DNA from: Neomelitea salexigens DSM 19753
GTDB lineage: Bacteria; Pseudomonadota; Gammaproteobacteria; Pseudomonadales; Spongiibacteraceae
DNA: 64,000 nucleotides
Assembly: GCF_000422345.1 (NCBI RefSeq)
Contig: NZ_AULP01000001.1
Span: forward strand, 434,001-498,000
Direction: 5' to 3'
How positions within the stretch are numbered: the stretch's first letter is position 1; each line of letters opens with the position of its first letter. The translations under genes were made by a program, and so were the position numbers. Of this stretch, positions 4,270 through 17,935 are shown piece after piece. The notes under the pieces are model-generated. The model had not been told where the DNA came from, searched no databases, and saw only the letters and a program-made list of their open reading frames with translations.

Positions 4270-4989
4270 TTACAAACGCAGCGTGAAATCCTTGCCATTG
4301 CGCGGGCGCCCAAACATTTGGCTGAGGCTGCGATAAATATCACTCTGCGGCGGTGGCGTTAAACTAATTTGACCGCGGGGTATTCCGCGCGAATCGAGCG
4401 TTACAGTGCCACGTAGGCGGTGAGGGTTAGCCTCATCGATGACGATCCGCAGTCTACCGGCATCGCAGCTGACCTCCGCTCGAATCTGCCCCAGGCTTTC
4501 CAAGCCGTCAATGTCACCGCTTAGCTGCCCTATTTCCACCTCCCCGGTGAGCGACTGACACCCCTGGGCGGTCATACTTGCCTCAGATGCCTGCGCATTG
4601 AATACGCCGTCAAAGCCCATCGCAGGTACCTGTATGGCCTCAAGTACAGGCGCCAAACGCCCTGTGGCAGTCAGCCCCGAAATCAGCAAGGTATCACCCT
4701 TAACACCGGCCGTTAGCGCCACGTTGGCGGGCTCGGCAACAGATAGAGTAAGGGGGTTCCCGGAAAAACTCTGCAGAGGAGACAGCTGCCAACTTACGCC
4801 GCGAAGCGTGACACCCTGAACTCCAACATGACTGAATTCGCCACGCCAAAGCGAGCCCTTGGCAACACCCAGCTCGACGCCAGCTAACTGCTCACCCACT
4901 ACATCGCTTAGCAGCCAAGCGGGAGCTCGCCAAACAACGCCGACGATAAAAAACAGTATGCAAACAACAATTATCGCTAAGCGCTTCAA
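4270..4989 (-). CDS. gspN: Type II secretion system protein N
   Basis: Last gene of the secretion operon. The 239-residue protein has one N-terminal membrane helix (IIVVCILFFIVGVVW) followed by a periplasmic beta-rich domain; the segment GVAKGSLWRGEFSHV and the C-terminal TLDSRGIPRGQISL are typical of GspN. GspN is an accessory inner-membrane component found only in some type II systems, and its exact role is not settled. It overlaps gspM by 4 bp. The 3' end lies only 25 bp from the converging DUF3080 gene, and I see no clear terminator there. Confidence 0.85.
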   Translation of the reverse strand: MKRLAIIVVCILFFIVGVVWRAPAWLLSDVVGEQLAGVELGVAKGSLWRGEFSHVGVQGVTLRGVSWQLSPLQSFSGNPLTLSVAEPANVALTAGVKGDTLLISGLTATGRLAPVLEAIQVPAMGFDGVFNAQASEASMTAQGCQSLTGEVEIGQLSGDIDGLESLGQIRAEVSCDAGRLRIVIDEANPHRLRGTVTLDSRGIPRGQISLTPPPQSDIYRSLSQMFGRPRNGKDFTLRL

Positions 4990-5468
4990 GCCTCGCCTCC
5001 TAATACCACTCGCAGCGACACTTTACCCGGCACATCTAATCGGCTCATTGAGACGGTGTGCAACGGCATGCCCGAAGCGACCAGGGCATCGATAAAACGC
5101 ACAATATTGTTGTAGTCGCTATTGCTAACCTGCACCGCATAGCGGCCGCCGCTCTGAGGCTCAATGCGGCTGATGGCAACTGTATACTGCCTGGCAGCGC
5201 TGGTGATTTGTTGCTGGGTGGAGCCGGTTACCGTTGCGACTTTACGACCGCTGCGTTGCGCCGCGCGCACTTTTGCTGCCGCATCTTGCATCCATAAATA
5301 CGCCTCTCGACGCTGCTCTAATCGCTCAGACGACTGCTGCTTAGCGCTGATCAAGGGCTGCCAAACGGCCAGCCAAATTAGCAGTGGGACACCGGCAATT
5401 AGCCCCACCAGCAAAATCGTGCGCTCTCGCTCGTTGCGGCTCTCGAACCAATTTATCAACGCGTTCAT
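4986..5468 (-). CDS. gspM: Type II secretion system protein M
   Basis: Inner-membrane platform protein that partners with GspL. The 160 residues have a short cytoplasmic start (MNALINWFESRNERERT), one membrane helix (TILLVGLIAGVPLLIWLAV), a coiled-coil stretch (ISAKQQSSERLEQRREAYLWM) and a small C-terminal ferredoxin-like domain. Length and layout match GspM. It overlaps gspL (upstream) and gspN (downstream) by 4 bp each, so translation is probably coupled. The assignment rests on position in the operon and this topology more than on a catalytic motif. Confidence 0.88.
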   Translation of the reverse strand: MNALINWFESRNERERTILLVGLIAGVPLLIWLAVWQPLISAKQQSSERLEQRREAYLWMQDAAAKVRAAQRSGRKVATVTGSTQQQITSAARQYTVAISRIEPQSGGRYAVQVSNSDYNNIVRFIDALVASGMPLHTVSMSRLDVPGKVSLRVVLGGEA

Positions 5469-6646
5469 TGCGCTGCCTCCCGCAGTTCAAGCTGCCCGCT
5501 GATCCCCTTATCCATCTGCCCAAAGGCGCCCCGCTCCACCTCAAAGCCCTGAGAGGCAAGTGCCGCCACCCAGCGATCGACGCCGTCGTAGCTGTCTGCT
5601 TCGACGAGTATTTTGATCGCGCTATTGGCATAGGTCATTTGCTGAATGCGCAGGGATACATTGCCTTTGCTGGCATTGGCAATCCGCTCCAGCCAGGGAA
5701 GGAAGTCACTGTCGCTGCGCACGCCCTCCAGAGCATTTAACTGACTGCGCATTTGACTACGCGCGTTCACGACTCGAGCACCGGGGAAAACATCGCGATA
5801 AATATCTACCATGCCCTGCTCGTACAATTCGATCTGGCGCCGGTTATCACGAACGTCCAAGGCCAATTGAATGAAATGAGTGAACAGCACCGTTAGTAGC
5901 AGTAGCACTGGCCAGCGAAATTGCTTCCATTGCGCCGCACTCTCATCGCGCAACGCATAGGCGCCGCTAAACAAGTTTACTGGCCAGGGCTGCCATAGTT
6001 TGGCAATCATCGCTAAGCGATGCTCAAAGACCTGTTGGCCTTGCTCATTTAAGCCAGCGGGCAGTTCAGTACCCTGCAGGTGGTATATTTGCGCGGAGGT
6101 ATCTTGACCTGCCGCTAGCTGCCACCAATAGCTGAGGTTATCTTTGGCGATGGCAATTGCCTGCTGTCCAATATGGGCGACTGCTCGCGTGTCATCGATC
6201 AGCGCAACATTGGCAGGCAGTGCAGCGTAATCGGGTACCACCGTTTTAATTTTCAAACCGCTGTTGGCCAGTAGGCCGTGCCACCGGTCCATGTATTGCC
6301 GGTCAACCACCAACACATCGGTGGATTCATTGGCACGTATAACGCCACAGGCCAGGTGAACCTGTTCCAGGTCACTGCACAGCTGCTCTTCCAGCAAAAA
6401 TGGCAGCGCCGATAAGCCAACGCGCCCCCCTTTTGGAAGCACGACCCGTTGCCAGCTCACCCACTCGCCCGGCACCACGACAAAGCAGGGCAGCGAAGCA
6501 AAGCGCTCGGCCAGTGTGGCAAGTGCGCTGGCTTGCGCATCGACAACACCACTGTCGAGCATTTGCTCGGCCTCGGTGTCCCACTGGAGCCATTGCACTG
6601 TAGGCTCACTGGGCGCCGGCATTGATAGCAGTAATCGTTCGCTCAA
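5465..6646 (-). CDS. gspL: Type II secretion system protein L
   Basis: Inner-membrane component that binds the ATPase GspE on the cytoplasmic side and GspM in the membrane and periplasm. The 393-residue protein has an actin-like cytoplasmic domain (residues 1-240, including PCFVVVPGEWVSWQRVVLP and LPFLLEEQL), a single membrane helix around residues 245-262 (PVLLLLTVLFTHFIQLAL) and a periplasmic ferredoxin-like domain. This is the normal GspL layout and length. It overlaps gspK and gspM by 4 bp. Confidence 0.9.
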   Translation of the reverse strand: MSERLLLSMPAPSEPTVQWLQWDTEAEQMLDSGVVDAQASALATLAERFASLPCFVVVPGEWVSWQRVVLPKGGRVGLSALPFLLEEQLCSDLEQVHLACGVIRANESTDVLVVDRQYMDRWHGLLANSGLKIKTVVPDYAALPANVALIDDTRAVAHIGQQAIAIAKDNLSYWWQLAAGQDTSAQIYHLQGTELPAGLNEQGQQVFEHRLAMIAKLWQPWPVNLFSGAYALRDESAAQWKQFRWPVLLLLTVLFTHFIQLALDVRDNRRQIELYEQGMVDIYRDVFPGARVVNARSQMRSQLNALEGVRSDSDFLPWLERIANASKGNVSLRIQQMTYANSAIKILVEADSYDGVDRWVAALASQGFEVERGAFGQMDKGISGQLELREAAQ

Positions 6647-7623
6647 AAAACTTCTCCATATTCCCGCGCATAGGCATAGGCTTTGCCATTGCGAAGTACA
6701 AAGCGACTGTATAAGCGCAGTCGGCGCTGCTCGTAAAACACATCGGCCAGCCCCAGAAAGTAACTGGACTTCACCCCCAGTCCCGCCTGGAATTCAGCGG
6801 CGACCTGTTGCCCTTCGGGAAGGCCCAAGCTGGCAATAAAACTCTCAACGGACGCCCAACCCTCCGCAGGACGCTCAGCAATAAGTCGCTGTATTTGCTC
6901 CACGGCCAGCAGGTTACCGATAGCTGCCGCCAATAGTGGGGCATCTTCCTCGCCCAGCGTATTAATATTCAAGCGGGTATCAAATTCGGGCAGCGCACAT
7001 AAAAAGGGCCGCAGCGCCTCCTGTTCCTCCGCGTCAAAATCGGCGAATAAGCCCAGCTCACTCACCGAGTCAATGGCCTGATTGGGCGGTAGATAGGGAT
7101 AATCCTCACCACTGTAGCTCAAATCTTCCGCCCCAAAAGGGCCCTCGGGCGAGAAGTCGCTATCCACCCAGTCGCTTAAGCGCTGGCCGATATACTCAGC
7201 GCGCTGAACATCGACCTCCACATTCAACAGCAACAACTCAAATACTTGTTGCGCGCCGCTCTTCTGGCCACTCTGTTCGCTGCCATCAGGCCGGTGCAAG
7301 CGATTGACATTAAAGCAAGCTTGCTGGTCGTCGATAAGCCCTGCGATAGAGCCGCCCTCCACGGGAAAAACAACATCGCGGCGCGCCCAGTTCTGGTTCA
7401 GTGCAATAACGTCCTCACCCGCCACATCTTCCAGCGACTTCGCGGCGATGTACTCGCCGCCCAACGCATACCAATAGGCCTGATCCATGTAGCGTTGATT
7501 CAACAGCCGCTGACTGCTGTAACGCACAGACTCCACCAGGTTCACTGACAACACCAACATAATGGAGACCATCAGCAATACCATTAGCAGCGCTGCACCG
7601 CGCTGCTTCGACGGCAGATTCAT
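6643..7623 (-). CDS. gspK: Type II secretion minor pseudopilin K
   Basis: Large minor pseudopilin at the tip of the pseudopilus, expected to form a complex with GspI and GspJ. I place the start at the ATG at 7621-7623 (MNLPSKQRG), which overlaps gspJ by 4 bp; the open frame further upstream lies inside gspJ. The prepilin leader ends in RG and is followed by AALLMVLLMVSIMLVLSVNL. As is usual for GspK, the Glu at mature position 5 is missing. The large alpha domain inserts after residue 100. Length of 326 aa is normal. Confidence 0.9.
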   Translation of the reverse strand: MNLPSKQRGAALLMVLLMVSIMLVLSVNLVESVRYSSQRLLNQRYMDQAYWYALGGEYIAAKSLEDVAGEDVIALNQNWARRDVVFPVEGGSIAGLIDDQQACFNVNRLHRPDGSEQSGQKSGAQQVFELLLLNVEVDVQRAEYIGQRLSDWVDSDFSPEGPFGAEDLSYSGEDYPYLPPNQAIDSVSELGLFADFDAEEQEALRPFLCALPEFDTRLNINTLGEEDAPLLAAAIGNLLAVEQIQRLIAERPAEGWASVESFIASLGLPEGQQVAAEFQAGLGVKSSYFLGLADVFYEQRRLRLYSRFVLRNGKAYAYAREYGEVF

Positions 7624-8228
7624 GGCACCAGCTCCGGTAGCACAACGTTCATCTCGATGCCTGGCCACGGGCCAACATCCAGCTCGACACGCAGGCCCTT
7701 GGGCTGCAGGGCATTTAACTGCGTGCTGGGCGGCCAAAAATTGGTCCAGCGACTGCCGTCATAAAAACTGACAACAAAGCGATCCACCCCTTCGAGCATC
7801 ACGCGTTTTTGCCAGGCGCTATTCTGTGTTGGGTCGGCAACGCCAGCACTGCGGCGTTGCAACTGCCCGTCTTCAAGGCGGTATTGCACACGCTCCAGGG
7901 TGCTGGCTAAACGCTGCCCCGGCAATACACGGCGGCCACCGTGAACAAACTCCAGCTCGCTGTTTTCACCAATCTGTTCAGCGACGATTCTTGCCCCCAT
8001 CGCGTCACCTTGTTCATCCCGGGGAATCCGCGGCGTAAGTTGCTCCAAATCCCGGCGCATCATCTGCAGGGCCAGTGCCAGGCGCTCCAGCTGGTATTGG
8101 CGCTTAGCTACCTGCTCTTGATTCGACAGTGCGCCGTTCAACATGGCGCTGGCCATTGCGCCCAACAAGGCCATGATGCCAATGGCAATCAGTAGCTCGA
8201 CAAGAGTAAACCCGCCCTGCCTGCGCAT
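7620..8228 (-). CDS. gspJ: Type II secretion minor pseudopilin J
   Basis: Minor pseudopilin with a prepilin peptidase site MRRQGG before FTLVELLIAIGIMALLGA; Glu5 of the mature protein is present. 202 residues. It would be processed and N-methylated by a GspO/PilD peptidase, which is not encoded in this window. The start codon shares one base with the stop of gspI and its end overlaps gspK by 4 bp. The C-terminal beta-sheet region (RFVVSFYDGSRWTNFWPPS) fits the GspJ family. Confidence 0.9.
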   Translation of the reverse strand: MRRQGGFTLVELLIAIGIMALLGAMASAMLNGALSNQEQVAKRQYQLERLALALQMMRRDLEQLTPRIPRDEQGDAMGARIVAEQIGENSELEFVHGGRRVLPGQRLASTLERVQYRLEDGQLQRRSAGVADPTQNSAWQKRVMLEGVDRFVVSFYDGSRWTNFWPPSTQLNALQPKGLRVELDVGPWPGIEMNVVLPELVP

Positions 8229-8590
8229 TACTGGCCCACCTTTTTAGGCATATAAGCGCTGCGGCTGGCTAAGGTGTCTTGTTCGCCAGAGAGCTGAACA
8301 CTGATATCCACTCGGCGGATGGCGGGGTCCGGTGTATCACTCAAGCGCCGACGCCAAACAAAATCGTAACCCGCAAGGCTTTTCTCCCCCAGATTACGGT
8401 TCCCGTAGCCCTCCCGTAGAATGTCTATCAGCAGATTTTGTGCGAGCAGGTCGGCAAATTGGCGCTTTTCTAACTCACCTGTGCTGAGGGTCGCTTCGCT
8501 CAAGCTCTTACTCAAGGCCACAGCTGCGGTAGCAAAAATCATCAGCGCGACCATGATCTCAAGCAGTGTAAACCCGCGTTGCTTCCTCAC
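8228..8590 (-). CDS. gspI: Type II secretion minor pseudopilin I
   Basis: Minor pseudopilin of 120 residues with leader MRKQRG and mature start FTLLEIMVALMIFATAAVAL, including Glu5. GspI is thought to nucleate the tip complex with GspJ and GspK. The motif LAQNLLIDILREG and the C-terminal WRRRLSDTPDPAIRRVDISV are typical for the family. It overlaps gspH by 4 bp and touches gspJ. Confidence 0.9.
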   Translation of the reverse strand: MRKQRGFTLLEIMVALMIFATAAVALSKSLSEATLSTGELEKRQFADLLAQNLLIDILREGYGNRNLGEKSLAGYDFVWRRRLSDTPDPAIRRVDISVQLSGEQDTLASRSAYMPKKVGQ

Positions 8591-9093
8591 CGCGCCGCCT
8601 CCGGCCGCAAGCGGTCATCAACACTGATGGAGCCGCCATCGGCAGATAATAGGCGCCATTGAAATGGACTGGTCTGGCCGTCGCCCAAAAACAGTATCTG
8701 GGGTGTCAATACGCGCCGGTCATCACCCTCAGGCAGATTTAATGGCTCGCCTGCTAACAGGATTTCACTGCGCAAGTCGTCGTCTATCTCCAAAGGTTTG
8801 GCTAATGGCCCTTGGGTAATAGCTGACCAGCCGTCGGCATTGCGGCTCAGAAAGCGGCCTTTATCGCCGTCCCATAACAAGCCCAAACTGCGGCCACTAA
8901 ACACCGCCTCCGCCCTTGCTGTGCGCAGCGCCAGCAGAATTACCGCGCGATTTTCGCGCAGCAGCTCTTCGCCACCTCTGCTGGGCAGAGTCAGAACGGC
9001 AACACCGCTCATCAGGCCAATAATAAAGATAACAACCAACAGCTCCAGCAAAGAGAAGCCGCGTTGACTACTCCTGCCAGTTGACGATGTCAC
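8587..9093 (-). CDS. gspH: Type II secretion minor pseudopilin H
   Basis: Minor pseudopilin of 168 residues; the prepilin leader MTSSTGRSSQRG is longer than in GspI and GspJ, and the mature start is FSLLELLVVIFIIGLMSGVA with Glu5. GspH links the tip complex to the main GspG fibre. The gene start lies 26 bp inside the 3' end of gspG, so the pair overlaps in different frames. Identification is by leader, order in the operon and the motif RAVILLALRTARAEAVFSG. Confidence 0.88.
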   Translation of the reverse strand: MTSSTGRSSQRGFSLLELLVVIFIIGLMSGVAVLTLPSRGGEELLRENRAVILLALRTARAEAVFSGRSLGLLWDGDKGRFLSRNADGWSAITQGPLAKPLEIDDDLRSEILLAGEPLNLPEGDDRRVLTPQILFLGDGQTSPFQWRLLSADGGSISVDDRLRPEAAR

Positions 9094-9511
9094 GGGCTAA
9101 CTCCTCACCGCCCTCTTCACCATCAGCTCCGGTGGAATACAGATCGTAGGGGCCGTGCTCACCAGGCTGGATGTAATTATAGGGGTTACCCCAGGGATCC
9201 TCAGGCAGGCGTTTAATATAGCCATTACTGCGATAATTTTTCGGTGAGGGGCCCGCTTCAGGCCGCTTGACCAGCGCCATTAGCCCTTGGTCGGTGGTTG
9301 GGTAAACGTGGTTATCCAACTTATACATATCCAGTGACTGTTCCAACACCGCTATATCTGCGCGGGCCTTCTCCACCATCGCTCGGTCTTGGTTTTGCAA
9401 CACATTCGGAGCAACAACGGCCACCAAGAGCCCCAAGATGACGATAACGACCATGATTTCCAACAGTGTGAAACCCTGTTGGCGGCGAGAACTCAATGCA
9501 CGCGACTCCAC
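9068..9511 (-). CDS. gspG: Type II secretion major pseudopilin G
   Basis: Major subunit of the pseudopilus. The 147-residue precursor has leader MESRALSSRRQQG and mature start FTLLEIMVVIVILGLLVAVV. The C-terminal calcium-binding loop is recognisable (YDLYSTGADGEEGGE), as is PEDPWGNPYNY, typical of GspG. Translation starts at a GTG with one of the best ribosome sites in the operon (TAGGAGG, spacing 5-6), which fits the need for many copies relative to the other components. Its 3' end overlaps gspH. Confidence 0.95.
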   Translation of the reverse strand: MESRALSSRRQQGFTLLEIMVVIVILGLLVAVVAPNVLQNQDRAMVEKARADIAVLEQSLDMYKLDNHVYPTTDQGLMALVKRPEAGPSPKNYRSNGYIKRLPEDPWGNPYNYIQPGEHGPYDLYSTGADGEEGGEELARDIVNWQE

Positions 9512-9520
9512 GTCGACCTC

Positions 9521-10738
9521 CTAAAACTGAGTAAGGTTATTCAATTGCAGTATCGGCAGCAGAATTGCCAACACGATCGCTAAGACTACCAGCCCCAAAA
9601 CCACGATTAACAGGGGTTCAAAAAGGCTGACAAACATTTGCACACGGGCCTGAAGCTCTCGCTCCAGGTTGGCGGCGGCGCGCTGAACCATCTGCTCCAA
9701 CTCACCACTGGACTCGCCGCTGGCGATCATATACACCGCCATTGGTGGCAATTCCGCTTCATCCTGTAAACACCGGCTGAAGCTCTTGCCCTCGCGCACC
9801 TGCTCACGCACGCGATCCATGCTTTGTTTTAAATGCTCATTGCCCAGCGTTGCACAGGCCACTTTCAGCGTTTCCAAAAACGGCACCCCCGACGACAGCA
9901 AAATCGCCAGCGTACGCAACATGCGCGCCGCGTCGAGCTCCAGCATTAGCAGCCCCCAAAGTGGCACCTTCAATACCCAGCGGTGGGCTCGCAAGCGCCG
10001 TTGCGGATCGCGCATCCATAAATAAACGCCCGACGCGATAGCCGCTATCGCAAAAATCATCACATACCAGTAGCTGGCGAGGCCGTCGCTGATGCTAATT
10101 AGTGCCCGTGTTAAAAACGGCAGCGTCTGATCATAGTGTTCAAACTGTGCGGTGACCTTTGGAACAACGTAGGTCATCAGCGCGGTAATGACGCCGATGG
10201 CGACAAAACACAATACCACGGGATAGAGCGCCGCCTGCACAATCACACCGCGCAGCTTTTGGCTGTCTTCGGTGTATTCTGCGAGCTGGTTTAACACCTC
10301 TGCCAGGTCACCGGATTTTTCGCCAGAGCTGACCAGAGCGCGGTAAACAGAGTTAAAAACGTGGGGGTGGTCGTTCAGGCCATCGGCGAGCGAATGCCCC
10401 TCCAATACTCGCGAACGCAATTCCAGAATTATACGCTTGAGTGCCTCTTTGCGGCTGTGCTTTGCCGTTGCCGCCAAGGCCTCTTCGACCGGTATTCCGG
10501 AATGTATCAGTGTTGCTAAGTGGCGGGTGAACAGCGCGAGATCGGCAATACCGATACGCGGCCGCGACAATGACAAGCCGCCCTTACCGGAAGATTTATC
10601 GCGAGTGGCTTTGACTTCTACCGGAAATAACTGCTGATCCCGCAGGGCTTGTCTTGCCATGCGGATCGAATCGGCTTCTACGATGCCCTTGCGACTGGCG
10701 CCGCCAGCGTCGAGTGCACGGTACTCAAAGGCCGGCAT
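9521..10738 (-). CDS. gspF: Type II secretion inner-membrane platform protein F
   Basis: Polytopic platform protein of 405 residues. It has two repeated GspF/PilC domains (LFTRHLATLIHSGIPVEEAL and ARMLRTLAILLSSGVPFLET) and three membrane helices, near residues 170-195, 220-240 and at the C-terminus (FVSLFEPLLIVVLGLVVLAI). It holds GspL, GspM and GspE together at the inner membrane. I prefer the ATG at 10736-10738, seven bases after GAGG, over a GTG two codons upstream. The start lies 14 bp inside gspE. Confidence 0.92.
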   Translation of the reverse strand: MPAFEYRALDAGGASRKGIVEADSIRMARQALRDQQLFPVEVKATRDKSSGKGGLSLSRPRIGIADLALFTRHLATLIHSGIPVEEALAATAKHSRKEALKRIILELRSRVLEGHSLADGLNDHPHVFNSVYRALVSSGEKSGDLAEVLNQLAEYTEDSQKLRGVIVQAALYPVVLCFVAIGVITALMTYVVPKVTAQFEHYDQTLPFLTRALISISDGLASYWYVMIFAIAAIASGVYLWMRDPQRRLRAHRWVLKVPLWGLLMLELDAARMLRTLAILLSSGVPFLETLKVACATLGNEHLKQSMDRVREQVREGKSFSRCLQDEAELPPMAVYMIASGESSGELEQMVQRAAANLERELQARVQMFVSLFEPLLIVVLGLVVLAIVLAILLPILQLNNLTQF

Positions 10739-12206
10739 CGGCACCCTCGCGAACGCTGCGCAATAGCTCGTCGAGGCTCGTTTGACCTTCGACCACCAAC
10801 CGCCGCCCCTCTGACATCAACGTTGTCATTCGGGCACTGGCGTAGCGTTGAATTTCCTGCTCGCCGGCGCGATTATGGATCATTTCCGCCAGCTCCCTGT
10901 CGATCACCAACAGTTCATAGACGCCCTGACGACCGCGATAGCCAGAGTGCTGGCATGCTTCACAGCCACCGGCATTGTAGGCTTGCTGACCCTCTAACTG
11001 GGTATCTCCCAGCAGGCGCGCTTCCGTCGCATCCAGTGTGATTGGCTGGCGGCAGGACTGACACAAACGACGCACCAGACGCTGCGCCAATACACCTTTT
11101 AAGCTCGACGCAATCAAGTAAGGCTCTACACCGATGTCGACCAGACGCGTAATGGCGCCAATGGCGGTATTGGTGTGCAAGGTCGATAACACCATGTGAC
11201 CGGTTAGCGACGCCTGTACGGCAATTTCGGCCGTCTCTTGGTCGCGAATCTCGCCGACCATCACGACATCGGGGTCCTGGCGAAGAATCGCCCGCAGGCC
11301 CCTCGCGAAGGTCATACCCACTTTGGCATGCACTTGCGTCTGACCGATCCCTTCAATGTCGTACTCTACCGGGTCTTCCACGGTGAGAATATTCCGCTTG
11401 CGGTCGTTCAAGGCCATCAACCCGGCATAAAGCGTAGTGGTTTTACCGGAGCCAGTTGGCCCGGTCACCAGGATAATACCATTGGGCTGGTGCAGCAGGT
11501 CGGTCAGTTTGGCCAGTGTTCTCTCAGGCATACCGAGATGAGAGAGATCGATTCTCGCGGCCTGTTTATCCAGCAGGCGCATCACCACGCGCTCGCCATA
11601 ATTCGATGGAATGGTCGACACCCGCACATCCACCGACCGCCCGGCGATTCGCAGTGACACGCGACCATCCTGGGGCACACGCTTTTCCGCAATATCCAGG
11701 CGAGACATCACCTTTATGCGCGACACCAGTAAGGGGGCGAGGCGACGGTTGGGTGTTAATACTTCTTGAAGAATGCCGTCCACTCGCAAGCGAACCGACA
11801 TGGTTTTCTCGTAGGTTTCAATATGAATATCGGAGGCGTCGCGCTTTAGCGCTTCGCCGAACAAGGCATTAATCAGGCGGATAACTGGCGCGTCATCCTG
11901 CGCGTCCAACAGGTCCTGAGACTCGGGGATCTCCTCCGCCAAGCGGTCAAGATCCACTTCGTCGCTGATATCGCCCATCGCCGACATCGCATCGCCCTGC
12001 TGGCGCTGAAAAGCCTCGTTAATCTTCTCTTGCAGTGCTTCCTCATCACATAACGCCATTGAAAATGGCGCATTCAGCGCTCGCTGAACCTCGGCCAAGG
12101 CAGGCGCTGGCGTGGTGCGGCAAACCAACACTTGAGGGCCATGCTCGCCATCCTCCACCAACAGGCGATTAGTGCGTGCGAAGGCGTAACTTAAAGGGCG
12201 CGACAT
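10725..12206 (-). CDS. gspE: Type II secretion ATPase E
   Basis: Cytoplasmic hexameric ATPase that drives pseudopilus assembly. The 493-residue protein contains the N1E/N2E part that binds GspL, Walker A (GPTGSGKTTT), Asp box (ILTVEDPVEYDIEGIGQTQV), Walker B (DPDVVMVGEIRDQETAEIA), the His box (LSTLHTN) and the four-cysteine zinc motif (LCQSC ... CEACQHSG). All key residues look intact. The ATG shares one base with the gspD stop codon (TGATG), so translation is likely coupled to the secretin gene. Confidence 0.95.
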   Translation of the reverse strand: MSRPLSYAFARTNRLLVEDGEHGPQVLVCRTTPAPALAEVQRALNAPFSMALCDEEALQEKINEAFQRQQGDAMSAMGDISDEVDLDRLAEEIPESQDLLDAQDDAPVIRLINALFGEALKRDASDIHIETYEKTMSVRLRVDGILQEVLTPNRRLAPLLVSRIKVMSRLDIAEKRVPQDGRVSLRIAGRSVDVRVSTIPSNYGERVVMRLLDKQAARIDLSHLGMPERTLAKLTDLLHQPNGIILVTGPTGSGKTTTLYAGLMALNDRKRNILTVEDPVEYDIEGIGQTQVHAKVGMTFARGLRAILRQDPDVVMVGEIRDQETAEIAVQASLTGHMVLSTLHTNTAIGAITRLVDIGVEPYLIASSLKGVLAQRLVRRLCQSCRQPITLDATEARLLGDTQLEGQQAYNAGGCEACQHSGYRGRQGVYELLVIDRELAEMIHNRAGEQEIQRYASARMTTLMSEGRRLVVEGQTSLDELLRSVREGADAGL

Positions 12207-14392
12207 CAGGCTTGGCCATCCTCAGCGCCGTCACAGCGGCGCGGCATCTTCGAGCCAGCGCGCACTCGACGGCTGCATTCATCCTTACGCCACTCTATGG
12301 GCTCGGCCGTAACCGGCGCTTCCTCTGCGGGACTGGCAGCGGCGCCCTGCTGCGCCGGCGGCTGCGGCGCTGGCGCATTCTCCGGTGCGGATTCAGTGTT
12401 GGCGGGTGGCGATGCCTTAACCGGCGGCTCAGCGAGCGTTTCGCGGGGCAGCAAATCTACCGGCGACGGCTCCAGGCCGGACCATTCTGGTAGTACCGAT
12501 AGCTCGGTGAACGGGAACAAGGAAATACCGGATGCGGCTTTAGCCAACTGCTCTGTACGAATAAAGTTGTACTTTCTGCCACTGAGCTCAGAGAGCGTTG
12601 CCTGGTCACGGACAATCGTTGGCCGGATAAACACCATCAAATTGCGCTTGGACATGCTGGTGTTATCCGCACGAAACAATCTGCCCAACAGGGGGATATC
12701 CCCCAACAAAGGCACCTTCGCCGTCTGCTCATTGACCTGATCATCAATAAGGCCGCCTAACACGATTGTTGCACCGTCGTTCACCAGTACCGTCGTTTTA
12801 ATGGTGCGCTTATTAGTAATTACATCGGCGGCATTCGTTGCCGGGCTGAGCGAGGACACCTCCTGCTCAATCGTCATTTGCACAGCATCCCCGTCGTTAA
12901 TCTGCGGCGTCATCAGGAGCTTGGTCCCGACTTCTTGCCGCTCGATGGTCTGGAAAGGGTTGGTATTTGTGGAACTCGCAGTCGAGCCGGTGATGACAGG
13001 GATTTCCTGCCCCACCAGAATAGACGCCTCTTCATTATCAAGGGTGAGTAGACTGGGTGTAGAGAGAATATTTGACTCCGAGTCACTCGCCAACGCCGAA
13101 ACCAAGGTGGCAAAACTAAAGCCGTCTGACAGCTTCCCCAGACCTATGGCAGCGCCCTTGACCGTTGACGCAGCCGCCGCCGCTGCATCACTGCCGGCCA
13201 ACAGGCTAATAATTCCCGGTGTACCGCTGGTACCCGATGCACCGCCGCCGAAATTGATGCCACCTGCAGGTGTGCTGCCCTCTTGAGACCCTCTAAATAG
13301 CCACTGTACCCCTAGCTCTTTAGCCTTACTGTCAGTAACTTCAATAATGATGGCTTCGACCAGCACCTGCGCACGACGAATATCCAGGTCGCGGATGATT
13401 TTTTCCAAGTCAGAAATAATGTGCGGACTACCCGACATAACAATGGAATTGGTCTGCTCGTGTGCCTCGATATTAATTGATGACGACACACCCGGCGCCG
13501 CATTTCGACCCGCGCTCTGATCCTCTTTAACAATGGTGTCGCTTATGCTTTTTAAGACTTTGGCTAACTCTTCTGCTTTGGCGTACTTCAAATACCTAAC
13601 GCGAATATTCGACTGGCTGGACACCTCGCTATCGAGGTCAGCAACTAGCCTTCGCAGATAACTACGCGCCTCGTCGTCACCAAATAGAATAAGCGTATTC
13701 GTCCGTGGGTCTGCCGCGACAACAGGCTTGGATGATCCCCGTTTGCGCGTTTGTTGCGACAGCACTTTGTTTAAAACGCGCTCCACCTCTTCCGCCGAGG
13801 AGTTGCGCAACACCACGGTCTCCATCAACTGGGAGTCGACAGAGTTAACGGCCGAGATGATAGACATCAGGCGGCGAACATTGGATTCGCGATCGGTAAT
13901 CAAGATGATGTTGGCGTCGGAGTAACTGGTGATTACCCCGACTTTATTATCGACGAGGGGCCGTAATGACTTCACCAGCTCGTCGGAATCTGCGTTCTGT
14001 AGCTGCGCAATGCGGGTAATGATGGACTCACTGCGACCTACTGCAGCAGAGGAGCGCTGGACTTCAATGCCTTCTATTTTCGCCGCCTGATTTGGAATAA
14101 CTTTGAGCACACCGTCGCCGGCCTCGACCGCAGAGTAGCCCTCTACCCCAAGTTGCAGCAGAAAGATTTGATAAAGTTCATCGGCGTCGAGTTTTCTGTG
14201 GCTCTGAACGCTGACTTTGCCCTTAACTCGGCTATCTACAACAATAGTTTTGCCCGTCAATTTGGCAACCGTATCGATAAATTCACCGATATCAACATTT
14301 TGCATGTCGAGCTCGAAGCGTTCGGCGTAAGCAGCTTGCAGCGGCGCGGCCATTACCACCAGCAGTGATAGGCTTAGGAGAAAAGTTTTCAT
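12206..14392 (-). CDS. gspD: Type II secretion outer-membrane secretin D
   Basis: Secretin that forms the outer-membrane channel. The 728-residue precursor has a signal peptide (MKTFLLSLSLLVVMAAPLQA), domains N0 to N3 (residues about 25-330), and the secretin beta-barrel domain with the glycine-rich cap-gate region and VPLLGDIPLLGRLF. After the barrel comes an unusual Pro/Ala/Glu-rich linker of roughly 50 residues and a basic tail with two cysteines (DECSRRVRAGSKMPRRCDG), which is where an S-domain would normally be. It overlaps gspC by 4 bp and gspE by one base. Confidence 0.95.
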   Translation of the reverse strand: MKTFLLSLSLLVVMAAPLQAAYAERFELDMQNVDIGEFIDTVAKLTGKTIVVDSRVKGKVSVQSHRKLDADELYQIFLLQLGVEGYSAVEAGDGVLKVIPNQAAKIEGIEVQRSSAAVGRSESIITRIAQLQNADSDELVKSLRPLVDNKVGVITSYSDANIILITDRESNVRRLMSIISAVNSVDSQLMETVVLRNSSAEEVERVLNKVLSQQTRKRGSSKPVVAADPRTNTLILFGDDEARSYLRRLVADLDSEVSSQSNIRVRYLKYAKAEELAKVLKSISDTIVKEDQSAGRNAAPGVSSSINIEAHEQTNSIVMSGSPHIISDLEKIIRDLDIRRAQVLVEAIIIEVTDSKAKELGVQWLFRGSQEGSTPAGGINFGGGASGTSGTPGIISLLAGSDAAAAAASTVKGAAIGLGKLSDGFSFATLVSALASDSESNILSTPSLLTLDNEEASILVGQEIPVITGSTASSTNTNPFQTIERQEVGTKLLMTPQINDGDAVQMTIEQEVSSLSPATNAADVITNKRTIKTTVLVNDGATIVLGGLIDDQVNEQTAKVPLLGDIPLLGRLFRADNTSMSKRNLMVFIRPTIVRDQATLSELSGRKYNFIRTEQLAKAASGISLFPFTELSVLPEWSGLEPSPVDLLPRETLAEPPVKASPPANTESAPENAPAPQPPAQQGAAASPAEEAPVTAEPIEWRKDECSRRVRAGSKMPRRCDGAEDGQA

Positions 14393-15267
14393 ATATCCAG
14401 TCTTTTGCTCAAAATCGTATTGTTGCGCTGCACAAGCAGCTCGAAGGATTGCGTGGTTTCCATCAGCTTCATTAATTCGGTAGTCGGCAACTCCGACAAC
14501 GACTGGCCATTCACAGATAAAACGACATCGCCCGGCTTCAAATCAAGTAGCTTAAAAAGGCGTGGATCGCGCCCAGGCTTCATCTCATAGCCAATGAGCT
14601 GCTCGCCCTCCATGACCGGGCTCGCGGCAAAAAAGCGCGCCAAACGCAGCGGGCTATTTTGAATCGTCTGCCGCGGGTCGCCAATAAGATCACGGATTTC
14701 AGCACGATTCAGGTCGATCACATCGCCATTAGCCGCTGAAGGAGTAGCTGTCGCGCTAATCCCCTGGCTCACGCGGCGTTTTTGCAGTTCAATTTTTTCC
14801 TGCTTGCGGTTGTTCTCAATCACAATGTGGTCAGGCATTACCGCCAACAGTTTCACGGCCCCGGCGACTTCTATCTTTTCTCCCACGCCGTAGGCTTTCG
14901 TCTTGCTGCCGTGGCGCAGAATCGCCACGCCGCTGTCTTTACTGCCGGCGACAACGCCAAGCACGGTAATTTTCAGACGGCTGCGCTTGATATCCTTCTG
15001 GATCGTCTGCTCATCCACCGCCGCCTTGGGTGGCTCGCCAAACAGGGGGACGGCGAGCAAAGACTGAACACTGTAGTCGGGGCCATTGCCTGTCGCAACA
15101 TCAACCGTGGCAACGCTGGCAGGGGGCAACGTTGGCGTGCGCAAGATGCTGGCGACACTCCAAAATAGCTCGGTCAGCAACACAATCAACAACACTAAAA
15201 GCAAGGCGCTGATGGCGGAGCGCAACTGGGAGCTACGCAAAATTTTTACTACCGCCAATTTATCCAC
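14389..15267 (-). CDS. gspC: Type II secretion system protein C
   Basis: Inner-membrane protein that links the platform to the secretin. The 292 residues comprise a short cytoplasmic start, one membrane helix (ISALLLVLLIVLLTELFWSV), the HR domain that contacts GspD (LKITVLGVVAGSKDSGVAIL ... YGVGEKI) and a C-terminal PDZ domain (PGRDPRLFKLLDLKPGDVVL, VNGQSL). Translation starts at a GTG (MDKLAVV). It is the first gene of the 12-gene operon; the promoter must lie in the 180 bp upstream. A PDZ-containing paralogue is encoded about 0.8 kb upstream. Confidence 0.93.
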   Translation of the reverse strand: MDKLAVVKILRSSQLRSAISALLLVLLIVLLTELFWSVASILRTPTLPPASVATVDVATGNGPDYSVQSLLAVPLFGEPPKAAVDEQTIQKDIKRSRLKITVLGVVAGSKDSGVAILRHGSKTKAYGVGEKIEVAGAVKLLAVMPDHIVIENNRKQEKIELQKRRVSQGISATATPSAANGDVIDLNRAEIRDLIGDPRQTIQNSPLRLARFFAASPVMEGEQLIGYEMKPGRDPRLFKLLDLKPGDVVLSVNGQSLSELPTTELMKLMETTQSFELLVQRNNTILSKRLDI

Positions 15268-15414
15268 AGTTGTACATCATCCCTACCGTTGTAGCTAAGC
15301 GACGCATAGTAGAGAAACAGTGTGACATTTTTCTTACCACGAACGACGCCTTTGCAAGGTTTTAGCCAGTGCCAGCTAGGCTTGCAATGCCCTTTTCATC
15401 AAACCGTCATCAAA

Positions 15415-15434
15415 GCCGGGCAAAGCTACCCGGC
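15415..15434 (-). terminator. Hairpin after the DUF3012 gene
   Basis: Inverted repeat with 6-bp GC-only arms (GCCGGG / CCCGGC) and an 8-nt loop, 16 bp beyond the stop of the DUF3012 lipoprotein gene in the direction of its transcription. The tract after it is only weakly T-rich (TTTGATG), so it is a plausible but not strong intrinsic terminator. The rest of the 15268-15450 interval holds nothing else I can name and must contain the gspC promoter. Confidence 0.4.
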
Positions 15435-15450
15435 CTGGACAGGCTTATCA

Positions 15451-15618
15451 CTATTTAAATACGCAGTGTTTGGTGTAGTCGCTTGCCTCGTTGACGCTCC
15501 AATCACCTTTGGGCTTTTCCTTCATCGCCGCGCACCATGCCTCGGAACCCACTTCAGGAGCACAGGCTGCAGCCAACAACAGTGAAGATAGTAACAAGGC
15601 TTTTTTTATCATTTGCAT
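15451..15618 (-). CDS. Small DUF3012 lipoprotein, 55 aa
   Basis: A 55-residue precursor with a lipoprotein signal ending in the lipobox AAAC (MQMIKKALLLSSLLLAAAC), followed by a mature part of about 36 residues containing EVGSEAWCAAMKEKPKGDW and ending in KHCVFK. The motif W-C-x-x-M-x-x-K-P-K-x-x-W and the second cysteine near the end match the DUF3012 family of small lipoproteins, whose function is not known. The start has AGAGGT five bases upstream; the ATG two codons later is an alternative. The two cysteines of the mature domain may form a disulfide in the periplasm. Confidence 0.8.
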   Translation of the reverse strand: MQMIKKALLLSSLLLAAACAPEVGSEAWCAAMKEKPKGDWSVNEASDYTKHCVFK

Positions 15619-15727
15619 AATTACCTCTGGTCTTGGACAGTTGAACGACGCTTTTGCGCCAAATCCGGCCTAGTGTAACAGAGGCAATGTGCGAGGCGCA
15701 CAGTGGAAGGTAATTTTTGAGGGGTGC

Positions 15728-15759
15728 TGCACTCTGCTGAAAACTACCGGCAGAGTGCA
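15728..15759 (-). terminator. Hairpin downstream of the rubredoxin gene
   Basis: A perfect 10-bp inverted repeat (TGCACTCTGC / GCAGAGTGCA) with a 12-nt loop lies 10 bp past the rubredoxin stop codon. There is no T-run directly after it on the minus strand, so it may act as a transcript-stabilising hairpin or a weak terminator. Confidence 0.45.
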
Positions 15760-15769
15760 GCGTCAGTGA

Positions 15770-15943
15770 CTAAGCCTCAACCATATCGAAGTCGAACTTA
15801 CTGATACCGCAATCGGGGCACTCCCAGTCTTCGGGAACATCGTCCCAGCGTGTGCCAGCCGGAATACCGTCATCGGGAATACCCTCTGCCTCATCATAAA
15901 TGAAGCCACAGATAACACATTCCCATTTTTTATAGTCGCTCAT
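15770..15943 (-). CDS. Rubredoxin
   Basis: Small iron electron carrier of 57 residues. The two CxxC pairs that bind the iron are ECVICG (Cys9, Cys12) and ECPDCG (Cys42, Cys45), with the usual [20 protein letters not shown] between them. I chose the ATG at 15941-15943, preceded by GGAGAG; the frame is open four codons further. Rubredoxins of this kind pass electrons to alkane hydroxylases or oxidative stress enzymes, but no partner or rubredoxin reductase gene is next to it, so the partner is unknown. Confidence 0.95.
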
Positions 15944-16080
15944 CGTTCTCTCCATACAGTGCTGCGAGGCAGCTGAGTCGCCGCTATTGTTTGGCTCAGT
16001 ATACTACCCGAGAGACCGACAAAATATTAAGGAAAGTCAATCATTTCGCAAGGAAAGGCGCATCGAAGTCTGCAAAGCAA

Positions 16081-16893
16081 CTACTCGGCTGCGAGACGAA
16101 TCATTGCCTGAACGGTTGCCGGCAAGGACACCAATACTATCTTGGTGCTCTGTTGATTCTGCGCCAAAGTAATGGTGATCGCCTCCACCTCATCGAGACG
16201 CTCATACAAGTCGCTCAACGCCTCGCTATCGCTCAGCGCAATGCCATTCACGGCGTGCAAGCGATCACCGCTACGAAGCGGCAGCTGGGAAAAAAGGCGT
16301 TCATCTTTGCCCGGGTAAAGGTAGTACTCCCGCTCACCGGAGTCCGACTTTTTACGCTCTACTTTCACCGCCCCGCGCAGCGACAGTGGTGAGGTGTACA
16401 AGCGCTCAAGGTATTCAGCAACCAATGTGGTGACTGCATTGTTGCCGCGCAGATCAACGGTCTCCACCCTCGCTGCCGGCTGGGCCCTGCCAGTCGCCAG
16501 AGGCTTATAGTGGAAACCACTGCCGCCAATGGGCAGCAATTGGTATGCCCCACAACTGTCCAGCAAGAGGCTCTCGTCCAGAATTTCCGCAACGCGCAGA
16601 CAGGGCGCCGCCAAAGTGTCACCCGACCGAACAAAGCGCTCCTGACCATCAACCGCAACCAGGGCCTGCTCGCTACCCTGCGCTTGCTGCACGGACAAAC
16701 CCACAACGACTCTGCGGATCTCGGGCTCCTCACCAAACCACTGCGCGTCGTCCGCGTTAAATATTTCTGACTCTTCGGCCAGCGTCTCAGCATCTGGCGC
16801 TGTCGAGTAGGCCTGAACCACAGCCAGCACAACGCCGGCAGTAGCTGCCAGTAGCAATATCGACAATATGCCGGAACGTTTAGTCACTGCCAT
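16081..16893 (-). CDS. Orphan GspC-like protein with PDZ-type C-terminal domain
   Basis: A 270-residue protein with one N-terminal membrane helix (ILSILLLAATAGVVLAVVQA), a periplasmic domain resembling the GspC HR region (EIRRVVVGLSVQQAQGSEQ ... RFVRSGDTL) and a C-terminal PDZ-like domain (LYPGKDERLFSQLPLRSGDR, VNGIALSD). The last part lines up clearly with the PDZ domain of the gspC product in the operon close by (KPGRDPRLFKLLDLKPGD, VNGQSL). Two cysteines (APCLRV and LDSCGAY) could form a disulfide. The start at the ATG 16891-16893 has GGGGAA upstream. I infer a role tied to type II secretion, perhaps as alternative GspC; this has not been shown. Confidence 0.7.
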   Translation of the reverse strand: MAVTKRSGILSILLLAATAGVVLAVVQAYSTAPDAETLAEESEIFNADDAQWFGEEPEIRRVVVGLSVQQAQGSEQALVAVDGQERFVRSGDTLAAPCLRVAEILDESLLLDSCGAYQLLPIGGSGFHYKPLATGRAQPAARVETVDLRGNNAVTTLVAEYLERLYTSPLSLRGAVKVERKKSDSGEREYYLYPGKDERLFSQLPLRSGDRLHAVNGIALSDSEALSDLYERLDEVEAITITLAQNQQSTKIVLVSLPATVQAMIRLAAE

Positions 16894-16978
16894 GGTAAAT
16901 TCCCCAAAGATGCCGGCAAGCTCGCTATAATGCGCCGACATTGATCGCCTATTTTACGTTTGTCAGAGCATCCACGCC

Positions 16979-17935
16979 ATGCAAATTCATCTCGCCCCGA
17001 TGGAGGGTGTCGTCAACGCACGCATGCGCGCACTGCTGACCAGTGCAGGCGGCATCGACCGCTGTATTACCGAGTTTGTTCGCGTCACCAACCAATTGCT
17101 GCCGCCAAGGGTGTTCCATCGCCTCTGCCCTGAACTGCAACTCGATGGCAAAACCCCCAGTGGCGTTCCTGTGTACGTTCAATTGCTGGGCAGCGAGCCG
17201 TTACCGATGGCCGACAATGCGGCGCGCGCCGCCGAGTTAGGTGCGCTGGGCGTCGACCTAAACTTTGGCTGTCCGGCTAAATGCGTCAATCGCCATCGAG
17301 GCGGCTCTGTGCTGCTGGACGAGCCCGAACTGATCCACAACATCGTGAGTGAAATCCGAGCGGCACTCCCCAAGCACTGTCCTTTGACCGTAAAAATCCG
17401 CCTAGGTTACCGCGACCGCAGCCGATTTTTGGATGTCGTTGCCGCCATTGTGGACGGCGGCGCCCAGCAGCTGACAGTGCACGCTCGCACACGCGACGAC
17501 GGTTACACGCCGCCTGCCCACTGGCACGAAATTGCCCCCGCAGGCGAGCGTTTCGCAATACCCATTGTCGCGAACGGCGAGATATGGAGCCCTACAGATG
17601 CCGAAAAATGCCTAAAAGACAGCGGTTGCAGCAATATTATGCTGGGTAGAGGAATTCTGTCGCGCCCAGACCTCGCCCTGTCGATTAAAGCCGCGCAGGC
17701 CGGCAATGGCTACCAAGACAAAGACTGGCAACAAATATTTCCAATGGTGTGCGAGCTATTTCAGGACAGCCTGGTCAACTGTGCGCCCCGTCATGTTGGC
17801 GGCCCCGTGAAGCAGTGGCTGGGATATTTGCGCCGCCACTACCCAGAGGCCGCAGGGCTATTCGAAGAGATTAAACGCCTACGCGCGCCGCAAGATCTGC
17901 AGGCTGCGTTACTGGATCACCAGCAAGCAGCCTGA
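16979..17935 (+). CDS. dusC: tRNA-dihydrouridine synthase C
   Basis: FMN-dependent reductase that makes dihydrouridine in tRNA; the DusC branch modifies U16. The 318-residue protein has the TIM-barrel motifs of the family: LAPMEGVVNARMR at the N-terminus, VDLNFGCPAKCVNRHRGGS with the catalytic cysteine, TVKIRLGYRDR, LTVHARTRDDGY and IVANGEIW. The short C-terminal helical domain (WLGYLRRHYPEA) fits. Divergent from the GspC-like gene, with an 85-bp shared upstream region. Confidence 0.92.
   Translation: MQIHLAPMEGVVNARMRALLTSAGGIDRCITEFVRVTNQLLPPRVFHRLCPELQLDGKTPSGVPVYVQLLGSEPLPMADNAARAAELGALGVDLNFGCPAKCVNRHRGGSVLLDEPELIHNIVSEIRAALPKHCPLTVKIRLGYRDRSRFLDVVAAIVDGGAQQLTVHARTRDDGYTPPAHWHEIAPAGERFAIPIVANGEIWSPTDAEKCLKDSGCSNIMLGRGILSRPDLALSIKAAQAGNGYQDKDWQQIFPMVCELFQDSLVNCAPRHVGGPVKQWLGYLRRHYPEAAGLFEEIKRLRAPQDLQAALLDHQQAA

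Follow-up and report, generated by a model that had tools for sequence, protein, structure and literature searches.

A stand-alone GspC-type gene beside dusC in Neomelitea salexigens: a probable survivor of a displaced type II secretion system, perhaps serving as a PDZ receptor

The window analysed here, a stretch of 64,000 nucleotides from Neomelitea salexigens DSM 19753, carries a type II secretion system (T2SS) operon and, a short distance away, a second gene of the GspC type that stands alone (SAC, for stand-alone GspC-type gene). SAC lies between a rubredoxin gene and the divergent dusC. The features are listed in Table 1, in which the letters of gspG to gspN in the resident operon are putative, assigned from gene order and typical features. 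The coordinates in the earlier note proved exact, and to them we add the minus strand, on which that note was silent. The motifs it quoted were also recovered, YLYPGKDERLF and VNGIAL in SAC against MKPGRDPRLF and VNGQSL in the operon GspC. When the two window proteins were aligned by BLASTP, a 33-residue stretch alone rose above noise (48% identity, E 2e-7), so that the resemblance, though genuine, is confined to a short stretch. With an upstream ATG at 16941 the ORF would be 286 aa long; the start was nevertheless taken as 16893, because GGGGA sits just 5′ of it and because the extension was matched, by eye, in the nearest relative only, among 19. A search of 15200-17100 for signals of co-regulation of dusC and SAC gave no promoter-like sites, and terminator-like sites were not above those of shuffled sequences.

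Table 1. Genes and domains at the SAC locus (window positions unless a locus is named).
Feature	Position	Strand	Basis
SAC (stand-alone GspC-type gene), 270 aa	16081..16893	minus	translation; homologues; GspC fold
SAC inner-membrane helix, residues 5-30	16804..16881	minus	AlphaFold2; hydrophobic in 20 aligned members (by eye)
SAC juxtamembrane helix and motif, residues 35-57	16723..16791	minus	AlphaFold2 helix 35-46; conservation
SAC HR domain, residues 60-123	16525..16716	minus	VIA-align to 3oss_C
SAC Cys98 and Cys114 codons, in HR	16600-16602, 16552-16554	minus	18/20 members
SAC pre-PDZ helix and PDZ, residues 146-257	16123..16458	minus	VIA-align, Foldseek
dusC, divergent neighbour	16979..17935	plus	NCBIfam NF007838, E 1e-87, below cut-off
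Rubredoxin gene, 3′ of SAC	15770..15943	minus	NCBIfam NF045768, E 2e-19, below cut-off
Resident operon gspC	14389..15267	minus	TIGR01713, 125 bits, over cut-off
Resident gspD (secretin)	12206..14392	minus	TIGR02517, 552.8 bits, over cut-off
Resident gspE	10725..12206	minus	TIGR02533, over cut-off
Resident gspF	9521..10744	minus	TIGR02120, over cut-off
Resident gspG to gspN	4270..9511	minus	ORF order and translations
oadGAB (sodium-pumping oxaloacetate decarboxylase) of G019, at dusC	L051:9699-13207		NCBIfam names OadG, OadA, OadB

An AlphaFold2 model of SAC, built on 20 aligned rows (pLDDT 83, pTM 0.71), showed helices at residues 5-30 and 35-46 followed by two beta-rich domains. With VIA-align, the first of these was placed on the HR domain of ETEC GspC (3oss_C; Z 9.2, 63 residues, rmsd 2.3). 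PilP domains (2y4y, 2ivw) followed closely at Z 8.2-8.7; as rows within one Z unit are counted as tied, HR alone cannot separate GspC from PilP. Residues 162-257 were placed on the PDZ of PulC (5hj1, Z 9.0) and 152-257 on that of EpsC (2i4s, Z 8.6). The top three Foldseek hits were GspC PDZ domains (EpsC, PulC), and the best four matches of profile A1 among PDB sequences were all GspC (E 2e-15 to 3e-12). The architecture proposed earlier, an inner-membrane helix followed by HR and PDZ, is thus borne out, and since both domains match those of GspC, structural comparison revealed neither a different fold nor an unrelated PDZ family. PilP, GspB and DegP-type PDZ proteins were tried as homes for SAC and dropped, as none outranked GspC for either domain, a missing row not being counted as exclusion.

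Family models agreed at the level of the whole group. The NCBIfam GspC models TIGR01713 and NF041515 matched all 20 SAC members known from the family at E ≤ 0.01 (best 2e-14). The window SAC matched both, with scores short of their cut-offs (E 6e-9 and 4e-8); at 35.8 bits against a curated cut-off of 101.6 bits it falls outside the TIGR01713 equivalog. A Pfam scan of the window SAC gave no family at E ≤ 1; among the 20 members, PF11356 (T2SSC) matched six at E ≤ 0.1 and PF16537 (T2SSB) gave one weak match (E 0.035). Between the membrane helix and HR, profile A1 displays a motif, E-x-x-IFNADxA-x-x-FGEDP, with E41, F45, A50, F53, G54 and P57 invariant, which by eye is the counterpart of the LFG motif preceding the GspC HR. 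Judging by the register of strands 99-104 and 108-113 in the model, Cys98 and Cys114 are predicted to lie opposite one another on a hairpin, and may form a disulfide. Both cysteines are missing from the sister genus.

SAC was compared with three known proteins. With GspC (EpsC, PulC, OutC; TIGR01713), whose second periplasmic domain is a PDZ or a coiled coil, it shares the order of TM helix, HR and PDZ, and GspC is its top structural match for both domains. It differs by having no adjoining gspD, by its score below the TIGR01713 cut-off, by the drifted first strand of its HR, and by the Cys pair and juxtamembrane motif of its own. GspB/OutB (4wfw), usually encoded beside gspA, is likewise an accessory TM and HR protein present besides GspC, and its HR matched that of SAC at Z 8.0. 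It is described in part of PMC9239104 as TM plus HR, whereas SAC has a PDZ too and so differs from GspB. PilP, a lipoprotein according to a passage of PMC3169554, is like SAC in the fold of HR, but the TM helix and the PDZ of SAC set the two apart; PilP belongs in a pilMNOPQ cluster, whereas SAC sits at dusC, and a pilMNOPQ-like cluster (by ORF order and translations) was found on contig C5.

The family of the window (f1) consists of the window's genus (g1) and a sister genus (g2). SAC was found in 20 of its 21 genomes, that is in 18/18 of g1 and 2/3 of g2, the g2 genome without it being 70% complete, and the frame was open in all 20. A stop counted once inside the match in each of G001, G012, G018 and G015 was, by coordinates, the frame's own end, these matches reaching the frame end or overrunning it by a few codons. 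In G013, of genus g1, SAC was 96% and the gspC match 100% identical to those of the window, which is therefore a near relative of G013. Over the order, the SAC profile matched in 68 of 293 genomes. Only the 13 f1 genomes sampled gave matches from its first positions; those of the other 55 began at position 41 or later. Forty-eight matches from 47 of these 55 genomes were fetched. No orphan gspC outside f1 was seen among 46 of the 48, gspD being next in all 46, and the remaining two (L112, L128) stop at contig ends. Within f1, all 20 SAC genomes also hold gspC and gspD; gspD directly adjoins SAC in none of them, the nearby gspD following its own gspC. The earlier claim of an additional GspC-type protein that stands alone and is not among the standard T2SS genes is supported.

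SAC adjoins dusC divergently in 19 of the 20 genomes, the window included, and in the other, G019, oadGAB alone lies in between. In 17/20 genomes (window included) the resident gspC has the orientation of SAC and lies 0.7-1.8 kb away, and the operon is on another contig than SAC in G010, G018 and G019. Linkage to dusC in 20/20 against 17/20 for the operon makes dusC the stable neighbour of SAC. The closeness to the secretion operon pointed out earlier thus holds in 17 genomes but is not the stable feature, and of the two neighbours whose synteny was to be followed, dusC is kept throughout, while rubredoxin is near (≤ 1.5 kb) in 17/20 only (16/19 relatives and the window). The order in G019 is dusC, oadG-oadA-oadB, SAC, with 52 bp between oadB and SAC; a 482-codon ORF overlaps the SAC end there. 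In G018, SAC is immediately followed by a glucose/sorbosone dehydrogenase-like gene (PF07995, L050:6906-8129). Searches for OadB gave no match in the seven g1 genomes covered, nor in G018 and G020 (70% complete), and oadGAB queries did not match the window by tblastn.

The same place is occupied by a different gsp operon in other families. Such an operon was found at dusC in 5/5 loci of f14, 2/2 of f30, 8/8 of f47 and 1/11 of f40, with dusC and gspC 0.4-4.6 kb apart. In 14 of the 16 loci oadB lies between the two (oadG and oadA were read from ORF lists in part of the 14); it is missing in two f47 genomes, as in g1 and G018. More generally, of the 45 loci outside f1 with an operonic gspC, 17 have oadB 180-770 bp upstream of it (tblastn match edges): f14 5/5, f30 2/2, f4 2/2, f45 1/1, f47 6/8, f40 1/11, and none in the other nine families. 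The f4 and f45 stretches examined contain no dusC, and the locus counts omit L112, L128, L137 and the window itself. In f1 operons, oadB upstream of gspC was observed in 0/20. The GspC linked to dusC and oadGAB in these families thus has the genomic position of SAC; it heads a gsp operon, whereas SAC stands alone and is shorter (242-279 aa, against 290-418 aa for gspC open frames with starts unrefined). gspD adjoins gspC in 45/45 loci outside f1, and also in L137. A comparison of 11 stretches at the far end of order-type operons, made for a scar of the lost gspD-N, yielded one rubredoxin case only. In G246, whose T2SS is at dusC, a rubredoxin gene (L186:8354-8527) 77% identical to that of the window lies about 5 kb 3′ of gspN.

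The origin of the resident operon was addressed with trees of GspD+E+F. With 50 rows (7/21 f1 operons kept; G033 and G158 absent because of cut genes), f1 was placed with f37 (99, starred), outside the clade of dusC-linked and related systems. With 33 rows, a set that omits six long rows and eleven near-duplicates of the 50, f1 again joined f37 (100, starred), and grouping of f1 with the order-type families was rejected (dlnL 121, p 1e-5). In the rpoB tree, by contrast, f1 grouped (90/91, not starred) with the order-type families, and f1 with f37 was rejected (dlnL 71, p 0.001); rpoB was recovered in 24 of 30 genomes, f29, f11 and f31 having no row. Judging by these trees, the resident T2SS operon of f1 is foreign in origin. 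Among 274 genomes of the class, a sample that includes neither g2 nor f37, 133 matched the window GspD at E ≤ 1e-100, the best besides its own at 47% identity. Family f5 (L062, G024) fell with the order-type systems in GspD+E+F and with f8, f36 and f37 in rpoB; as it changes sides between the trees, T2SS transfers may not be rare in the order.

From the dusC/oadB position, together with an operon foreign to f1, it follows that SAC is, most likely, the gspC that survived when an ancestral T2SS was displaced, which as a statement of history alone we regard as probable. The ancestral operon would have lain 3′ of oadGAB and divergently from dusC, as the gsp operon does in several families of the order. 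In the f1 ancestor, before g1 and g2, gspD-N of the old system would have been lost and a T2SS of foreign type gained, while the old gspC would have stayed at the dusC locus, retained by selection. The rubredoxin gene 3′ of SAC may mark where the lost operon once ended.

A motif preceding the PDZ, Y..[RKQ]L[YFL]..P.[SA]L, bears on the same question. It was found in 20/20 SAC and in 23/37 order-type GspC, against 0/21 operon gspC of f1 and 0/8 others. By family it is present in f47 (8/8), f40 (10/11), f14 (3/5), f45 (1/1) and f29 (1/1), so that it is common in the dusC/oadGAB-linked GspC of f47, f40, f14 and f45, and absent from f30 and f4, both oadB-linked, and from f16, f11 and f31. Profile A1 scored 82-133 bits on GspC of f47, f40, f14, f29 and a few more, and 37-67 bits on those of f16, f8, f5 and others, which is like the 41-73 bits on the f1 operon gspC, so that these scores too are weak support. 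An HMM of order-type GspC outscored an HMM of f1 GspC on all 20 SAC; as it also scored the f8 and f5 GspCs about twofold over the f1 HMM, these controls behave alike and the HMM scores support an order-type origin of SAC weakly.

Phylogeny of GspC itself was tried with four quick trees and eight clade questions (six AU tests, two by free tree). An earlier tree, which omits six long GspC rows and the G018 SAC, favoured SAC with order-type GspC by 9.5 lnL. The PDZ and HR+PDZ trees omit eight GspC rows and keep 10/21 f1 gspC and 10/20 SAC. HR+PDZ put SAC with order-type about 12 lnL better than SAC with the f1 operon, PDZ alone put SAC with the f1 operon gspC about 2 lnL better, and in each case neither was rejected. 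The free trees joined SAC, the f1 operon and f37 (SH-aLRT 89 for PDZ and 47 for HR+PDZ, not starred). This check, which had been proposed from the start, leans one way with PDZ and the other with HR+PDZ. As a decider of origin it was dropped, SAC being on a long branch, and the history therefore rests on position and on the incongruence of the operon.

The rival on history alone is a tandem duplication, in which the resident gspC gave rise to a copy on the spot. This copy would have remained at dusC and evolved quickly, and the operon would have moved away later in g2 and G010. The arrangement in 17/20 genomes, SAC and gspC being close and in the same orientation, is what a duplication would also leave; SAC with the f1 operon gspC was not rejected in the AU tests (p 0.30, 0.37 and 0.67), and the mild preference of PDZ alone and the free trees cited above go the same way. 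Against it, SAC in G019 stands where gspC follows oadB in the other type of T2SS, f1-type operons were never found next to oadB (0/20), and SAC in general shares its pre-PDZ motif with most order-type GspC, not with the gspC of its own genome. The motif, and above all the oadB position, favour a relic over a tandem copy, and we consider the duplication rather unlikely. The word paralogue used earlier, in the sense of a copy of the operon gspC, is doubtful in view of the synteny and the foreign operon.

Evidence for selection came from comparisons within the family. In three usable pairs of five (two were saturated; Nei-Gojobori, own script), dN/dS was 0.09, 0.20 and 0.20 for SAC against 0.00, 0.06 and 0.06 for gspC in the same pairs. 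Domains have not drifted equally. Mean identity within g1 was 0.41 for HR and 0.49 for PDZ in SAC, against 0.76 and 0.68 in the operon gspC, which gives an HR/PDZ ratio of 0.84 for SAC compared with 1.11 for the f1 operon, 1.18 for f40 and 0.98 for f47. The stretch 31-58 after the TM helix, with 55% identity, stands above HR; the TM helix and the linker are poorly conserved. The SAC consensus has lost the L-x-G-V-V-like first strand of GspC HRs, and the G-D region of HR is missing in the G018 SAC.

Two published observations help to interpret this pattern. In the XpsCLM model, described in part of PMC11981180, the L/M-binding site of GspC lies on the membrane side of the flexible linker before HR. 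In V. cholerae, according to passages of PMC12369372, one known T2SS substrate relies fully on the PDZ and others partly. With the membrane-side helix and the PDZ kept and HR drifting, and given the PDZ reliance in V. cholerae, we read SAC, tentatively and at somewhat short of an even chance, as a receptor whose PDZ would bind a few clients at the resident platform or close to it. The TM helix would hold SAC in the inner membrane; its juxtamembrane helix, at the modelled GspL/GspM site, may join or sit beside the resident platform; its PDZ may capture a subset of exported proteins poorly recognised by the new GspC; and the drifted HR would no longer be the main clamp on the secretin. A change in substrate choice through SAC, as suggested earlier, would be plausible. 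That SAC would be a clampless adaptor, having outlived its own machine and feeding the old substrate set through its PDZ into the foreign T2SS, is a more doubtful proposal.

In the other reading of the earlier note, SAC would form a second assembly with GspD, replacing or mixing with GspC. The HR fold is kept, and parts of PMC9239104 describe GspB as an extra HR protein binding the same N0 domain, and the OutC HR as binding N0 weakly and also contacting N1/N2, so that loss of the N0 strand need not end contact with the secretin. This has to be weighed against the loss in SAC of the very strand which, in the ETEC complex, forms most of the hydrogen bonds with N0 of GspD (PMC3169554, in part), the HR/PDZ ratio below those of the three operon sets, and the G018 HR lacking its G-D region. 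Because HR is the most drifted domain of SAC relative to the operon GspCs, the second assembly is disfavoured and looks improbable to us, and a membrane-tethered PDZ receptor is favoured over a second GspC-GspD clamp as the likelier function.

Equally hard to defend is the proposal that SAC has left secretion and become a periplasmic PDZ protein acting on envelope proteins, by DegP-like recognition or by docking to a PilQ or Tad secretin. PDZ domains are general peptide binders, the genome has three further secretins, and SAC persists in genomes that lack both oadB and the old T2SS; but SAC occurs only alongside a T2SS, with gspC and gspD in 20/20 SAC genomes, and GspC PDZs rank first for its PDZ. 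Of the four secretin matches of the genome, one was the operon GspD; by eye, one of the others belonged to a PilMNOPQ-like cluster and two to Tad-like clusters. A second T2SS without a gspC of its own, as a partner for SAC, was dropped on these assignments of the other three. The second secretin cluster (secretin with PF13629) contains two short genes about 1.8 kb apart, L068:11277-11663 and L068:13122-13505 (G000:C7), whose proteins are 95% identical, have a prepilin-like start (by eye) and match no Pfam family at E ≤ 0.001. Least probable by far is a decaying relic without function: SAC does evolve faster than gspC, and its TM helix and linker are poorly conserved, but its frame is open in 20/20 genomes across two genera and its dN/dS is well below 1.

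The joint reading that we retain, a relic gspC of a replaced T2SS which may act as a tethered PDZ receptor, has in our judgement a little better than an even chance as a whole. Among the open-licence PMC papers listed by the searches, titles and abstract openings showed no report of such a stand-alone GspC, nor was a case met in the portions considered of PMC2386152, on gsp clusters in Saccharophagus, of PMC6617341, on the Legionella T2SS, or of PMC6668835, on the type IV filament superfamily. The parts are known already; what appears new is, most likely, a stand-alone GspC retained after replacement of its machine.

In part of its discussion, PMC12369372 describes as unclear the role of the GspC PDZ, either an adaptor broadening the range of substrates or a vestige. 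If the joint reading is true, SAC, with its PDZ better kept than its HR, would offer a natural experiment on this point in a marine genus that can be cultured, and would show one T2SS swapped for another with a single part retained. If SAC is moreover the clampless adaptor proposed above, the resident machine would be a two-receptor T2SS, in which the choice of substrate is separated from the clamp on the secretin.
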